Source: Deltaproteobacteria bacterium GWA2_45_12
Lineage (GTDB): Bacteria > UBA10199
Assembly (NCBI GenBank): GCA_001797365.1
Contig: MGPH01000004.1
Span: 1-37,545, forward strand
Reading direction: 5' to 3'
DNA length: 37,545 nucleotides
Of this stretch, positions 290 through 35,008 are shown piece after piece. Within the stretch, counting starts at the first letter, position 1. Every line of letters begins with the position of its first letter. The notes beneath the pieces are model-generated. The model made no database searches. It saw only the letters and a list, made by a program, of their open reading frames with translations, and was not told where the DNA came from. Made by a program: the position numbers and the translations under genes.

Positions 290-2002
290 TCACTTTAAAA
301 TCTTAAAATCAATCTTGTGAGGCAGAAGTTTTGCGATTTGGTCGGCGGTTTGGCATTTGGGGAGTTCAGTCAGCAGGTGCCGCATGTACGCGTAGGGGTC
401 CAGGCCGTTGCCGCGGGCGGTTTGAAGGATGCTGTAAATCATTCCGCTGGCGTTGGCTCCGGCTTGGGTGTCGCTAAACAGCCAGTTTTTTCGGCCAATC
501 GCAAACGGCCGGATTCTGTTCTCCGTAAAATTGTTGTCGATGGCGAGTTTGCCGTATTTTAAATAGTTCATCACGTACGGCCACTGGTTTTGGGCATACG
601 TGATGGCCTTGCCCATCAGCCCTTGCGGCGGATACTTTTTTTCGTTTTCATTGAGCCAAGCTTTAATCTCTTTAAGTATAGGCTCTGATTGCGCCTGCCG
701 GATTTTAAATCGATCCTCGATTGTTTTTTCGCTGATTAGCTCTTCAATCTTGTACAGCTTTTGAATCAGCAAAAGAACTTCGTTCGCTGCGCTGCTTTGT
801 TTCGGCGACGCTTTCCGTACATCATAAAAATACCGCCTCACATGCGCCATGCATCCTACTCGAGTAACATCTGTTCTGTCGCAAACCGTATCGTAACCTG
901 CATAGCCATCCACCTGCAGATACCCCTTAAAATCCGTGAGCAGTCGGTTGGGCACTGTCCCTGATCTTGTTGGATCGTAATCAAATAAAACAATCGGATT
1001 TATTTTCACCCCTGCAATGGGGCCCAGCCTAGGCTCCCCTTTGGGGTCTTGGGGCCCATGCCGTGATCTTACCCACATGTAACTCTTGCTCTGAGCCTTT
1101 TTCCCGGGCTCTTTTAAAACCTGAACCACCGTCTCATCGCAGCAAACATAATCCGAGGATAAAAGCTCTTCTTCCATCAGGTTGTAAATCGGCTGGAGCT
1201 TCTCAGACATTGCAATCATCCAGCTGGCCATCGTGTTGCGGGGAATGTCGATGTGGCTCCGTTTGAAGATATGCTCCAAACGGTACAAGGGCAATGCATC
1301 CACGTATTTGCTCACAGCAATGTGAGCGAGTAATCCAGGTGTCGCATTGCTCTTGGGTAAAATCCTCTCCGGCATCTTCGCTGTTTTGATGGTGTCCCCA
1401 CAGCAGGAACAGGCGTACTTCTTTCGAATCGTCCGAATCACTTTCACCTTTGCCGGGATAATATCCACCTGCTCGGAAACTTCGGATCCAATCTCTTTGA
1501 GGGGGCTGCCATCTTTATCGCAAAACTTCTCTGCATCCAAAAGATCGATGATCACTTCCTCACGAGGTAGATCATCGGGAAAGGGCTTGCGTATGGGTCG
1601 ATTGCGGGTGTGTGCCGGAACTTCAATTCCGGGCTGGGCTTCCTCCACCACTGAGGCCAAGGCGCCAACTTCCGCTTCGTTGAAAAGTTCGCATTGATTC
1701 GATGACAGTTTCTCACTCTTGGCCGCATATTGCGCCATCCGTGCTAACCGCAGTTTCTCCCTTAAAAACTCATTCTCCTGTTGGAGAAACAAAAGCTCCG
1801 TGTCTTTTTTTTCGATTTCTGTTTTGTGATTTTGGATTTGTGATTGAAAACTTTGGGCTTTGTTTTGATATTTTTGGATTTCTATTGCGTGATTTTGAAT
1901 CTGAAGACTGATGATTCCTTTGAGCTGTTCTGCGTTTGCGGGGAGTGTTTCCGGATCAAACATTAAAATGTTTGTACCACAAATCATCCAAAAAAGCCTC
2001 AT
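290..2002 (-). CDS. tnpC: IS66 transposase TnpC (DDE)
   Basis: A 570-residue transposase of the IS66 family, slightly longer than the usual 510-530. The N-terminal third is a Gln/Lys/Glu-rich coiled coil (about residues 20-90), followed by a zinc-binding segment with a CSCCG cysteine cluster and then the catalytic core. Candidate catalytic acids are in YVCCDETVV, LQVDGYAGYD and the C-terminal NNFTENRIRPFAIGRKNWLF, the most characteristic IS66 block. The ATG at 2002 overlaps the tnpB TGA by four bases (ATGA), implying translational coupling. An alternative internal Met (MFDPETL) would remove 13 residues. The frame is intact, so the enzyme may be active. Confidence 0.95.
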   Translation of the reverse strand: MRLFWMICGTNILMFDPETLPANAEQLKGIISLQIQNHAIEIQKYQNKAQSFQSQIQNHKTEIEKKDTELLFLQQENEFLREKLRLARMAQYAAKSEKLSSNQCELFNEAEVGALASVVEEAQPGIEVPAHTRNRPIRKPFPDDLPREEVIIDLLDAEKFCDKDGSPLKEIGSEVSEQVDIIPAKVKVIRTIRKKYACSCCGDTIKTAKMPERILPKSNATPGLLAHIAVSKYVDALPLYRLEHIFKRSHIDIPRNTMASWMIAMSEKLQPIYNLMEEELLSSDYVCCDETVVQVLKEPGKKAQSKSYMWVRSRHGPQDPKGEPRLGPIAGVKINPIVLFDYDPTRSGTVPNRLLTDFKGYLQVDGYAGYDTVCDRTDVTRVGCMAHVRRYFYDVRKASPKQSSAANEVLLLIQKLYKIEELISEKTIEDRFKIRQAQSEPILKEIKAWLNENEKKYPPQGLMGKAITYAQNQWPYVMNYLKYGKLAIDNNFTENRIRPFAIGRKNWLFSDTQAGANASGMIYSILQTARGNGLDPYAYMRHLLTELPKCQTADQIAKLLPHKIDFKILK

Positions 2003-24744: not shown

Positions 24745-24804
24745 ATCTATCTCCTTTCGATTGTAAAAAAATAATCTTTATTGTTCACCCACCGCCTACG
24801 CCGT

Positions 24805-24832
24805 GTAGGGACAATCCTAGGATTGTCCCTAC
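24805..24832. repeat. 28-bp perfect palindrome with CCTAGG centre, copy 1
   Basis: Arm GTAGGGACAATCCT; an identical 28-bp copy is at 29209-29236. The minus-strand GTAG end provides the murU TAG stop (24829-24831). It lies 60 bp upstream of tolQ. Confidence 0.9.
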
Positions 24833-29850: not shown

Positions 29851-29968
29851 TTTGGAGTCCCTCAATGCTTAAAGTTTAGCATGGACAAAAAAGGGTGTTC
29901 AAACGGTATTTTCAAAAAAATCTTTAACGCAACACATCGCGTCAATTATAGGGGCTGGGCGATCGCCC

Positions 29969-30021
29969 CCTCCACTGGCAAAGCCAGATGGAGCCTCCCC
30001 CTCAACACCGCTGTGCGGCTG
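29969..30021 (-). repeat. 53-bp repeat, intergenic copy of the nadC insert
   Basis: Matches 34561-34613 at 50 of 53 positions on the opposite strand. Two of the three differences are a matched pair within the hairpin (T-A here, C-G in nadC), so pairing is kept. Preceded by GGGGCTGGGCGATCGCCCCC (29951-29970). It fills the gap between two minus-strand genes. Confidence 0.85.
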
Positions 30022-31079: not shown

Positions 31080-33863
31080 ATGGAAACAAAGGAACTCGAC
31101 AAAATATACGAACCCCATACCGTTGAAGATCGCTGGATTGAGTTTTGGCTTCAAAACAATCTTTTTGCTCCCGATTTTTCAAAAAGCCCCAAGGGCACCT
31201 TTAGCATTGTCATTCCTCCGCCCAATGTGACCGGCTCTTTGCATATGGGGCATGCCCTTAATTCAACCCTTCAGGACATTCTTGTGCGCTACCACCGCAT
31301 GAACGGCGAAAATGTGCTCTGGGTCGTTGGCACCGACCATGCCGGCATTGCCACACAAAACGTGGTGGAAAAACAATTGCATGCCGAAGGAAAAAACCGC
31401 CATGACCTGGGCCGTGAAAAATTCGTGGAGCGCGTTTGGAAATGGAAAACCGAATCCGGCGGCACCATTATCAGTCAACTCAAAAGACTGGGCGCTTCCT
31501 GCGACTATAAAAACGAGCGTTTTACGATGGATGAAGGGTTGTCAACGGCCGTTAAAAAAGTTTTTGTGCAGTTGTATAAAGAAGGGCTGATTTATCGGGG
31601 GGAACGCCTCATCAATTGGTGCCCCCGATGCCATACGGCCCTTTCGGATTTGGAAGTGGAACATTCAGAATCGCAGGGGAGTTTGTGGCATATTAAATAT
31701 CCGATTGTACGGGCGCCCCTTGGCGCGCCCTCAATTACGGGCGCAACAAGCAGCGCCCCTACCCTCATCGTCGCGACAACACGGCCTGAAACCCTTTTGG
31801 GAGATACCGCCGTCGCTGTTAATTCCAACGATGAACGTTACAAAGATTGGATTGGTAAAAAGGTGAAACTTCCCTTAACCAACCGTGAGATTCCCGTCAT
31901 TGCCGATGATTATGTCGACAAAGAATTCGGCAGTGGCGTTGTCAAAATCACACCGGCCCATGATTTCAACGATTTTCTGGTAGGCAACCGCCATGGGTTG
32001 GAACACATCAATATTTTAACTATTGACGGAAAGATCAATGACAAGGGCGGCGCTTATGCCGGGCTCACAACAGCCCAAGCGCGGCAGAAAGTGGTGGAAG
32101 ATTTGGAAGCACAAGAATTATTGGAAAAAATCGAGCCTTACAAAAACAAGATCGGGCATTGCTATCGCTGTCGCACCGTGGTGGAACCATTTTTATCCTT
32201 CCAATGGTTTGTCAGCACAAAACCCTTGGCCGAAAAAGCCATTGCCGCAGTCAAAAACGGCGAATCCCGCTTTGTTCCCCAACATTGGGAAAAAACCTAT
32301 TTCAACTGGATGGAAAATATTCAGGACTGGTGCATCTCGCGACAAATCTGGTGGGGACACCAAATTCCGGCATGGTATTGTGAGAAGGGTGGTAGGGGCG
32401 ATCCTTGTGATCGCCCTGGGCAAATACAAGATTCGCCCCTACACAACTGCCCCCCCATCGTCTCCGAAACACCTCCCAAAAAATGTTCCACCTGCGGGTC
32501 CACACAATTAACCCAAGACCCCGACGTCCTTGACACCTGGTTTTCTTCCGCCCTCTGGCCCTTTTCTACCTTGGGCTGGCCATGGAATGGCGAACACCCT
32601 CCAGAGGCGGGCAGGCAGGGTTCGCCCCTACAACAATTTTATCCCACCAGTGTCTTGGTCACCGCCTTTGACATCATTTTCTTCTGGGTCGCCCGCATGA
32701 TGATGATGGGTATCCATTTCATGGGGAAGGTTCCATTTAAAGACATTCATATCCATGCCCTGGTTCGCGACCCTACAGGCGCCAAGATGAGCAAGTCTAA
32801 AGGGAATGTGGTCGATCCGCTGGTGATGATGCACAAATATGGGACGGATGCGTTTCGCTTCACACTGGCCGCTTTCGCCGCCCAGGGCCGTGACATCAAA
32901 TTAGATGAAGCCCGCATCGAAGGGTATCGCAATTTTTGCAATAAAATCTGGAATGCGTCACGGTTTGCGCTGATGAATGCGGCGCCATTTATTTCAGGTG
33001 AAAATGATTTCAAAACCGTGGAGCCAAAAGAAGATTTAAACCGATGGATCCTGGTGGAACTTTCAAGAACTATCAGGAAGGTCTCCGAAAAAATTAAAGC
33101 CTATGAATTTAACCAGGCAGCACAGGCCCTTTATCAATTTTTCTGGATGAAGTTTTGCGATTCGTATGTGGAACTCTCCAAGGAAATTTTTCGAGGTGAA
33201 AACATTGCGGCCAAAAAGGAAACCGCAGCCACCATCTATTTTGTTTTGGATACCTCGTTTAAGCTTTTGCATCCTTTCATGCCCTTCATCACTGAGGAGA
33301 TCTGGCAGATTTTGGTGGATCGAAAAGGAAAGAGCATTGCCTTGGCATCATTCCCCGTTGCATGGGATCTCAAAAAAGAAGATAAAAAAGCTTGGGAGAA
33401 AATCGAATTACTGAATGCCACCCTGTCCTCCATCCGAAGCATCCGTCAGGAAACAGGCCTGCCACTTGCTCAGGAAATTTCGATCGAAATTAAAACCACC
33501 GAAACCAATTTGGCCAAGTACGAAGAAATTGTCGGTATGATCATGAAGTTGGGAAAATTGGGGAAAGTAGGGACCCGGACCGGCAACATGACAGAATCTG
33601 CCGCCTTGGTAGGTATTGAAAACGGCTATATCGCCATCCCCCTGGCTGCCAACGGTATTGACAGGGCCAAAGAAACAGAGCGTGTTCAAAAGAAATTAGG
33701 ACGGGTTCTGGCGGATATTAAACAATTGGAATTAAGATTAAATGATCCTAAGTTCATGGAAAACGCCGAGGCCGATTTGATTACGGAAAAACGGCTGACA
33801 TTAACACAGGCGAAAGAATTGGAAAAAGTTTTGAAAACGGAAATTGATCTTTTGAACAAATAA
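31080..33863 (+). CDS. valS: Valyl-tRNA synthetase
   Basis: 927 residues, a class I synthetase that charges tRNA-Val. HMGH (HIGH motif) is at 55-58 and KMSKS at about 569-573; the CP1 editing domain has VATTRPETLLGD and the C-terminus is a coiled coil (ETERVQKKLGRVLADIKQLELRL). Three extra segments interrupt otherwise conserved regions: about 210-228 before TTRPET, 438-455 after GHQIPAWYC, and 504-518 before FYPTSVLVTAFDIIFFW. Each is coded by a palindromic GTAGGGGC-type repeat and keeps the frame. They fall in loops and the rest of the enzyme looks intact, so it should be functional. No strong ribosome binding site. Confidence 0.96.
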   Translation: METKELDKIYEPHTVEDRWIEFWLQNNLFAPDFSKSPKGTFSIVIPPPNVTGSLHMGHALNSTLQDILVRYHRMNGENVLWVVGTDHAGIATQNVVEKQLHAEGKNRHDLGREKFVERVWKWKTESGGTIISQLKRLGASCDYKNERFTMDEGLSTAVKKVFVQLYKEGLIYRGERLINWCPRCHTALSDLEVEHSESQGSLWHIKYPIVRAPLGAPSITGATSSAPTLIVATTRPETLLGDTAVAVNSNDERYKDWIGKKVKLPLTNREIPVIADDYVDKEFGSGVVKITPAHDFNDFLVGNRHGLEHINILTIDGKINDKGGAYAGLTTAQARQKVVEDLEAQELLEKIEPYKNKIGHCYRCRTVVEPFLSFQWFVSTKPLAEKAIAAVKNGESRFVPQHWEKTYFNWMENIQDWCISRQIWWGHQIPAWYCEKGGRGDPCDRPGQIQDSPLHNCPPIVSETPPKKCSTCGSTQLTQDPDVLDTWFSSALWPFSTLGWPWNGEHPPEAGRQGSPLQQFYPTSVLVTAFDIIFFWVARMMMMGIHFMGKVPFKDIHIHALVRDPTGAKMSKSKGNVVDPLVMMHKYGTDAFRFTLAAFAAQGRDIKLDEARIEGYRNFCNKIWNASRFALMNAAPFISGENDFKTVEPKEDLNRWILVELSRTIRKVSEKIKAYEFNQAAQALYQFFWMKFCDSYVELSKEIFRGENIAAKKETAATIYFVLDTSFKLLHPFMPFITEEIWQILVDRKGKSIALASFPVAWDLKKEDKKAWEKIELLNATLSSIRSIRQETGLPLAQEISIEIKTTETNLAKYEEIVGMIMKLGKLGKVGTRTGNMTESAALVGIENGYIAIPLAANGIDRAKETERVQKKLGRVLADIKQLELRLNDPKFMENAEADLITEKRLTLTQAKELEKVLKTEIDLLNK
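31707..31762. repeat. In-frame 56-bp repeat element in valS, insert 1
   Basis: Begins GTACGGGCGCCCC, ends AGCAGCGCCCCTAC. It is an inverted copy of the 56-bp element after nadC (34945-35000), differing mainly in the centre. It encodes VRAPLGAPSITGATSSAP. Confidence 0.85.
32392..32442. repeat. In-frame 51-bp repeat element in valS, insert 2
   Basis: Two hairpins back to back: GTAGGGGCGATCC/GTGATCGCCC and GGGCAAATACAAG/ATTCGCCCCTAC. Ends GTAGGGGCGA and TTCGCCCCTAC mirror each other. Encodes RGDPCDRPGQIQDSPL. 51 bp is 17 codons exactly. Confidence 0.85.
32589..32631. repeat. In-frame repeat element in valS, insert 3
   Basis: GGCGAACACCC ... GGGTTCGCCCCTAC, stem GGCGAAC/GTTCGCC with a GCGGGCAGGCAGG loop. 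Encodes EHPPEAGRQGSPL. The outer end is truncated on the left relative to GTAGGGGC ends. Confidence 0.75.
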
Positions 33864-33957: not shown

Positions 33958-33982
33958 GTAGGGGCGAACCTTGTGTTCGCCC
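33958..33982. repeat. GTAGGGGC element ahead of nadC
   Basis: GTAGGGGCGAAC CTTGT GTTCGCCC, a single-hairpin member that ends 15 bp before the nadC ATG. Confidence 0.8.
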
Positions 33983-33997
33983 TTTAGAATCAAAAAC

Positions 33998-34948
33998 ATG
34001 AACCCATCCCTCTCCCAAATCGTCTCCCTTGCCCTCAAGGAAGATGTCATCACAAATGACATCACCAGCCTCGCCATTTTTGATGGCAAAAAAACGGGGC
34101 GGGGTGTTTTTTTGGCCAAACAGGATTTGATTCTTTCGGGAATAAACATGGTCAGGGAAGTCTTCCACCAAGTCTCTCCCTCTCTCCGCCTTGAAACATC
34201 GGCCAAGGACGGCGATTTCATCAAAAAAGGGAAAGTGTTCGGAAAAGTCCGCGGCAAAGTAACGGATATCCTGCGCGCCGAACGGGTGGCGCTTAATTTT
34301 TTGCAACAACTTTCCGGCGTGGCCACATTAACTTTTCGCTTTGTGGAAACCATCAAACCTTATCGCGCACGAATTTTGGACACGCGTAAAACCGTACCGG
34401 GGCTACGCATGCTCCAGAAACAAGCTGTTGCCCATGGCGGAGGACAAAATCATCGACTGAATCTTTCAGACATGTATCTTATCAAAGACAATCACATCGC
34501 CGCATGCGGAGGGATTGGAGCGGCCATTGACAAAGCCAAGGCCCATCGTACAAAATTTAACAGCCGCACAGCGGCGTTGAGGGGGAGGCTCCATCCGGCT
34601 TTGCCGGTGGAGGAAGGCTCCATGAGCCGCTGCCAGTGGCAGATAAAGGCGAGTGGAGAGCATACGCGAGCCCCTATGATCGAAGCCGAAGCAAAGAATA
34701 TTAAGGAAGTCAGAGAAGCACTTAAGCATGGTGTGGACATTCTTTTATTGGACAATATGGGGCTGGCACAGATTCGGAAGGCGGTTTCGTTGGCAAGGGC
34801 GCAGCAAGCGGCGCCCCTACTGGAGATCTCTGGCGGTGTAAACCTGCACAATGTCCGTAAATACGCGGCCACGGGGGTTTCACGCATTTCTGTCGGAGCG
34901 TTGACACATTCTGCCCCCAGTGTTGACATCAGTTTTGAGGTAATGTAG
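33998..34948 (+). CDS. nadC: Nicotinate-nucleotide diphosphorylase (quinolinate phosphoribosyltransferase)
   Basis: 316 residues from ATG 33998; family members are usually about 280. It converts quinolinate and PRPP to nicotinate mononucleotide in NAD synthesis. Hallmarks are FLQQLSGVAT, ARILDTRKTVPGLRMLQKQAVAHGGGQNHRLNLSDMYLIKDNHI, ILLLDNMG and ISVGALTHSAPSVDISFEV. The extra length lies in two spots: about 188-223 (encoded by a repeat also found at 29969-30021 plus following DNA) and 267-274 (RAQQAAPL, a GTAGGGGC half-element). The TAG stop is made by a third element. Active-site residues are retained, so activity is likely. Confidence 0.94.
   Translation: MNPSLSQIVSLALKEDVITNDITSLAIFDGKKTGRGVFLAKQDLILSGINMVREVFHQVSPSLRLETSAKDGDFIKKGKVFGKVRGKVTDILRAERVALNFLQQLSGVATLTFRFVETIKPYRARILDTRKTVPGLRMLQKQAVAHGGGQNHRLNLSDMYLIKDNHIAACGGIGAAIDKAKAHRTKFNSRTAALRGRLHPALPVEEGSMSRCQWQIKASGEHTRAPMIEAEAKNIKEVREALKHGVDILLLDNMGLAQIRKAVSLARAQQAAPLLEISGGVNLHNVRKYAATGVSRISVGALTHSAPSVDISFEVM
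34561..34613 (+). repeat. In-frame 53-bp repeat in nadC
   Basis: 50 of 53 identity to the inverted intergenic copy at 29969-30021. Stem CTCCATCCGGC / GCCGGTGGAG around TTT. It encodes SRTAALRGRLHPALPVE; the added segment continues to about 34668. Confidence 0.85.
34797..34820 (-). repeat. In-frame GTAGGGGC half-element in nadC
   Basis: The minus strand reads GTAGGGGCGCCGC TTGC TGCGCCC, nearly the first hairpin of the element at 34945-34968. Encodes ARAQQAAPL. Confidence 0.75.
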
Positions 34949-35000
34949 GGGCGCTGCTTGCTGCGCCCTCCGATTAGGGCGTACCAAGGGGCGCCCTTAC
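34945..35000. repeat. 56-bp two-hairpin element between nadC and hisS
   Basis: GTAGGGGCGCTGC ... GGGGCGCCCTTAC. Same length and near-identical arms as the inverted valS insert 31707-31762. Its TAG (34946-34948) is the nadC stop; its end is 8 bp before the hisS ATG. Confidence 0.85.
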
Positions 35001-35008
35001 AATAATTT

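Follow-up and report, generated by a model that had tools for sequence, protein, structure and literature searches.

Most descriptions of protein-coding palindromes come from the reduced intracellular bacteria Rickettsia and Wolbachia. RPEs and their Wolbachia equivalents are small, strongly folded, dispersed repeats that sit in frame in conserved genes and have no known transposase (PMC10969869, PMC2229807, PMC3733652). PMC2229807 reports that the Gmk protein carrying an RPE is both translated and active. GTAG/CGTC REPs are short GC-rich hairpins that show complementary stem changes, and some of them lie inside genes (PMC3733652). Bacterial MITEs (Correia/NEMIS, ERIC, RUP) are non-autonomous, small and folded, and are sometimes fused in frame (PMC2229807, PMC10969869).

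Here we analyse a window of 37,545 nucleotides from Deltaproteobacteria bacterium GWA2_45_12 in which the nadC gene carries an insert. We propose, with a probability of about 0.78, that this insert is one copy of a mobile repeat that is small and non-autonomous and consists of three hairpins with invariant linkers between them. The repeat belongs to a family that has a conserved fold, lies in frame within genes and is absent from NadC orthologues. The family appears to have multiplied inside genomes and passed between them, in several bacterial phyla; its mobility, including recent movement, we infer from the comparison of copies and sites. No published description of the element was found in the freely readable literature, where the matches were to RPE, REP and MITE papers.

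The nadC gene (33971 to 34948, forward strand) encodes quinolinate phosphoribosyltransferase, with Pfam domains QRPTase_N and QRPTase_C; the QRPTase_C match is split in two. The ATG at 33998 is the probable start. This is the only full NadC match in the source genome, and its reading frame is interrupted by the element with the frame kept. The copy is of the long subtype, extends from about 34561 to 34680 on the forward strand and reads in frame as NSRTAALRGRLHPALPVEEGSMSRCQWQIKASGEHTRAPM. Hairpin 1 (34563 to 34575, GCCGC-ACA-GCGGC), identified by the predicted fold and as covariation helix 1, is followed by a linker that the copy alignments reveal as conserved and unpaired (GTTGAGGGGGAGG, 34576 to 34588). 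Hairpin 2 (34589 to 34612) has the arrangement CTCCA-t-CCGGC-TTT-GCCGG-TGGAG and is supported by covariation. Between hairpin 2 and the 3′ part lies an extra module of about 50 nt (34614 to 34663), and the element closes with CGCGAGCCCC-TATGAT (34665 to 34680), which in short copies corresponds to the right arm of hairpin 3 and ends at a sharp right information boundary. All of these parts lie on the forward strand.

A short copy lies between genes on the reverse strand (29945 to 30021), identified both by repeat match and by the covariance model, and carries the hairpin-3 variant GGGCGATCGCCC. It lacks the extra module, which recurs at three other places in the source genome (one of them partial) and is known from that genome only. 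The initial annotation had described a 53-bp repeat with 50 matches and a paired change in its stem, and alignment of the two copies bears this out: 34561–34613 and the reverse complement of 29969–30021, also seen as an inverted repeat, are identical at 50 of 53 positions. The mismatches, nadC versus intergenic copy, fall at repeat positions 15 (C/T), 36 (C/T) and 46 (G/A). Positions 36 and 46 form one hairpin-2 pair that changes from C-G to T-A, the pair the annotation had reported. The third difference, which it had missed, converts a G-C pair of hairpin 1 to G-T and also keeps the stem, so that all three differences fit the fold.

The insert had been guessed at 36 residues; it is in frame and somewhat longer, at about 38–42 residues, with protein residues 194–235 standing where the solved NadC 1x1o has four. 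None of 29 orthologues of the class carries the element; from the conserved helix to the IEVEA strand they have a short segment that varies among them. The catalytic-region motifs IKDNH, IEAEA and LLLDN are intact on either side of the insert. NadC from two other genomes, G009 and G020 (L305, L306), carries other repeat-like peptides in the same loop (RQAQGERGS, PFDRLRVSGDKGERGS), so the loop looks like a permissive site for several repeat families.

A second palindromic repeat family (GTAGGGGCGC...GCGCCCCTAC) is also found in the window, at 31704–31762 in valS, at 34796–34820 in nadC and at 34945–35003. Its copy in valS accounts for about 14 extra residues relative to the solved ValRS 1gax (RAPLGAPSITGATSSAPT), and nadC is thus overlapped by this family as well as by the three-hairpin element.

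The nadC and intergenic copies are two of many. A DNA search of the source genome revealed about 25 places, and a covariance model built from eight copies, which we used for the genome searches, found 23 copies there with a best E of 2.5e-19, which excludes a chance match. The typical unit is about 75 bp and consists of hairpin 1, the linker, hairpin 2, hairpin 3 and a sharp end, CCCCTAYAAT(A)G; the long subtype is about 120 bp. Information falls to about zero outside (aa)CAG ... CCCCTAYAAT(A)G, and the flanks are random. Across 60 genomes searched with the covariance model, 22 were positive (the source genome included), all among the 46 genomes of the class. These 22 hold about 320 copies, with up to 81 in a single genome, and the 14 searched genomes from outside the class gave none. 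A search of 85,000 species genomes with an exact 22-base pattern did reach further: among the matches listed are MAGs labelled Nitrospirae, Nitrospira, Troglogloeales, Deltaproteobacteria, Syntrophus, Bdellovibrionales and Acidobacteria. The covariance model confirmed the full element in pattern-positive MAGs, including those labelled Nitrospirae, Syntrophus, Bdellovibrionales and Acidobacteria.

Some copies have recurrent neighbours. To the left of the element in the source genome (L010–L012, L018, L020, L026), an additional hairpin (GTAGATTC...GAATCTAC) frequently stands next to hairpin 1, and the copies of G027 have a common left sequence, GTCCGGGGCCCCACGACC, in its place. Two copies (L014, L027) are broken by N runs that are probably scaffold gaps at the repeat.

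The stems change sequence and remain paired. Single copies are predicted to fold into three hairpins (z about −2 to −3). In an alignment of 106 distinct copies that had been fitted to the structure, 98.0% of stem cells are paired, compared with 85.6% after shuffling and at most 55% in slid controls, and 197 cells carry double changes (47.9 shuffled, at most 39 slid). Double changes occur in 15 of the 20 stem pairs, and in five of five in helix 1 (hairpin 1). Because the alignment had been fitted to the structure, we also sought hairpin 1 without the model: a perfect stem of 4–7 bp is present in 130 of 185 copies, and its left arm takes 27 different sequences. In some copies both arms read GCGAGC, and these are predicted to pair via tandem G-A mismatches. 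Paired positions are nearly as variable as unpaired ones (0.112 against 0.159 per site). Unpaired stem changes at the background rate would have spoken against a role for the fold; we find the opposite, with only about 2% of pairs broken. Stem pairing is 97.7% inside validated genes and 97.8% elsewhere. That stems vary and yet stay paired indicates that what matters is the folded form, and the fold is probably needed for propagation of the element. This conservation would be a property of the element family; it is not a claim about nadC function.

How the stems change is another matter. Three recent long-subtype copies are 98–100% identical over 66 nt and have unrelated hairpin 2 sequences (CATCCGGCTTTGCCGGTGG, CAGCGGCTTTGCCGATGG, CATCCCCGCGGCGCGGGGTTG). 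Hairpin-1 and hairpin-2 alleles assort freely among copies. One copy (L047) has a new hairpin, TCCGCC-TCA-GGCGGA, and still the old flank to its right, as expected of an intermediate. The differing hairpins and their free assortment make many paired changes look like one-step exchanges of whole hairpins, and the paired change between the nadC and intergenic copies may itself have been one event. The argument from two copies is for this reason weaker than the initial annotation had stated: the fold does hold over the 106 distinct copies, but two copies cannot show compensatory selection. These same observations open the possibility, which we regard as tenable though not favoured, that the covariation arose without selection. 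Paired changes would then arise in a single step, through template switching in a hairpin (quasi-palindrome correction) or through gene conversion or module exchange between copies, and pairing would be a by-product of mutation. Such a process explains perfect stems. It does not explain why three hairpins whose loops are small and constant are retained in constant order and spacing across phyla, it leaves the spread of the element unaccounted for, and a graded series (C-G to U-G to U-A) is seen for some changes. The conclusion that the fold is kept therefore survives, because order, spacing and loop size are not fixed by exchange alone. More generally, whole-hairpin exchange can create paired changes between repeat copies, which calls for caution when structure is deduced from them.

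Many of the copies with long flanks lie in long open frames. On the basis of the Pfam domains around the insert, in-frame copies are present in NadC, ArgH, GlpK, PheT, PriA, dCTP deaminase, SpeA, MoaA (from a Nitrospirae MAG), RlmN and BipA. The Pfam domain of GlpK is split into two stretches by its copy, and RseP has two copies in opposite orientation. A zinc dehydrogenase and a penicillin-binding protein also carry in-frame copies, and Pfam likewise confirms inserts in an Rsm22-like methyltransferase, a fatty-acid desaturase, an FAD enzyme and a phage capsid protein; some of the gene names combine a Pfam domain with our reading of the sequence. A crude flank test, restricted to the same strand and to flank GC below 52% and run over 80 codons, gave 14 copies in frame and open and 6 that were not, several of the latter looking like gene borders. 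The commonest frame encodes a short, hydrophilic peptide, QPxxGVEGEAPTALPVEGATRAPI. Open frames being the basis for it, we infer that the insert is translated and that the protein gains 25–40 residues.

The copies have a preferred orientation. At flank GC below 54%, sense copies outnumber antisense copies 41 to 10 inside genes (p 1.5e-5) and 36 to 12 between co-directional genes (p 7e-4). Stop codons do not account for this bias, because antisense frames are at least as open. A cis-acting RNA (an mRNA stabilizer, processing site or attenuator) retained because it acts on neighbouring genes would account for the bias, for the stability of the predicted fold and for the many copies that lie 0–40 nt from a start or stop codon. 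We nevertheless consider such a role very doubtful. The copies found share neither gene function nor position, they also occur antisense and inside coding regions, and the NadC and rplL sites are empty in relatives. Moreover, a search of the window and the insert against Rfam 15 returned only a tRNA, and the element had no match at the gathering score or even at E up to 1.

Traces of insertion are present at a minority of copies. Direct repeats of 12–59 bp flank about 14 of 220 copies, the clearest being 19 bp (L133), 21 bp (L118), 17 bp (L358) and 15 bp (L047). The right repeat starts no more than about 5 nt from where the element stops on its 3′ side; its left counterpart ends 0–61 nt before hairpin 1. 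The duplicated stretches are often tRNA halves or gene ends (rplL, mraZ, mltG, coxB and 5S rRNA, names given by reading of the sequence). At L161, L151 and L390, where gene ends are duplicated, almost all differences are synonymous, which suggests later recombination with the DNA of relatives.

Viewed together, five loci (L154, L161, L151, L121 and L390) have gene 3′ ends duplicated around the element with almost exclusively synonymous differences. The 5′ part of both copies is often identical, and L154 has a third, partial rplL copy. The pattern looks as if mosaic recombination had acted where the target was duplicated.

A SINE-like retro-element, whose three-hairpin transcript would be reverse transcribed at the target, would be expected to have an exact 3′ end, a 5′ end that varies or is truncated, and target duplications of 12–59 bp; it would spread across phyla and put peptides into essential proteins. 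The position of the right repeat near the 3′ end fits this scheme, as do the sense polarity of the copies and the leader of L047, which resembles a truncated form of the hairpin adjoining other copies of its genome. We judge it improbable all the same: no RVT_1 hit is found in a genome that holds 71 copies and is 96% complete, duplications are lacking at most copies, and the synonymous-biased ones at L161, L151 and L390 are explained equally well or better by recombination with related DNA. In-gene copies have no duplication even at the protein level, where the mean score for duplication around them is 14.6, against 14.1 in the control.

The cognate transposase of the element was not found. 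Reverse transcriptase was rejected as a partner since its distribution does not track copy number. Y1/RAYT was likewise rejected: four element-bearing genomes gave no hits (some of these assemblies are incomplete), and it is present in many element-free ones. In a scan of 38 transposase and reverse transcriptase loci, the element is near three and flanks none on both sides. Phage, plasmid and viral-contig collections contained no copy of the element.

The hairpins can be read as single strands, as by an IS200/IS605-like or RAYT enzyme that would mobilize a REP-like single-stranded DNA element. Y1 transposase genes are common in the class, and one lies about 0.4 kb from a source-genome copy (L033). 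IS200/IS605-like and RAYT transposases are not known to make target duplications. This property, the absence of a GTAG-tagged single hairpin, the genomes without Y1 and the result of the locus scan lead us to consider mobilization of this kind unlikely.

The Y1 transposase-like gene at L033 (1456–1986, contig C24) has apparent repeat-like insertions of its own (GAGLQPAL, RAGHDRVRAGHRPAPTGG). An ORF of 570 aa in the window (290–2002, reverse strand) resembles an IS66-type transposase by eye.

Our favoured explanation for the nadC insert remains a small, non-autonomous, three-hairpin mobile repeat. A folded single strand, either RNA or DNA exposed during replication or transcription, would be recognized by a putative trans-acting enzyme, and if that enzyme recognizes the folded strand only fold-competent copies would propagate. 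An insertion within a gene would survive when it falls at a loop site, adds a multiple of three bases and brings no stop codon. The surviving insertion would then be a short hydrophilic extension that is translated and tolerated. If confirmed, the gain of about 25–40 residues from a mobile repeat would be a broader route of protein change, given that groundwater-metagenome bacteria of several phyla carry this unrelated-looking family in PheT, PriA and RlmN. With hundreds of copies whose hairpins can be swapped, the mode of movement becomes directly testable.

How does the element compare with known repeats? Unlike bacterial MITEs, it has no terminal inverted repeats, no TA duplication and no visible parent transposon. 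Nor is there a duplication of fixed length: most copies have none, and others have 12–59 bp. It resembles attC sites in being a folded single strand conserved in structure over sequence and in often lying just downstream of a gene in the same orientation. However, it lacks the RYYYAAC/GTTRRRY (R″/R′) core pair at its two ends, its 3′ end in the boundary profile is CCCCTAYAATAG, and copies are dispersed singly rather than in cassette arrays. A REP is one hairpin of 20–40 bp tagged GTAG or CGTC, often in inverted dimers, whereas the boundary profile and alignments of this element reveal three ordered hairpins with no tag. Also in contrast to a REP/RAYT system, no Y1 locus is flanked by copies on both sides and Y1 is missing from four hosts. 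(GTAG-like repeats occur separately in the window, at 24804–24832 and elsewhere.)

The element is like RPEs in that it, too, is found in frame in conserved protein-coding genes. Yet the two differ in several respects. RPEs are 105–146 bp and are modelled as long stem-loops with terminal inverted repeats; the element is about 75 bp and forms three separate hairpins, its ends, CAG... and ...CCCCTAYAAT, are not complementary, and its stem sequences are replaced wholesale. RPEs are known from Rickettsiales, whereas the element crosses several phyla, mostly in groundwater MAGs. We place it provisionally within the broad kind of protein-coding palindromic repeats, set apart from RPEs by structure and hosts. 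The best reading is of an element that is like an RPE in effect and different in build and range.
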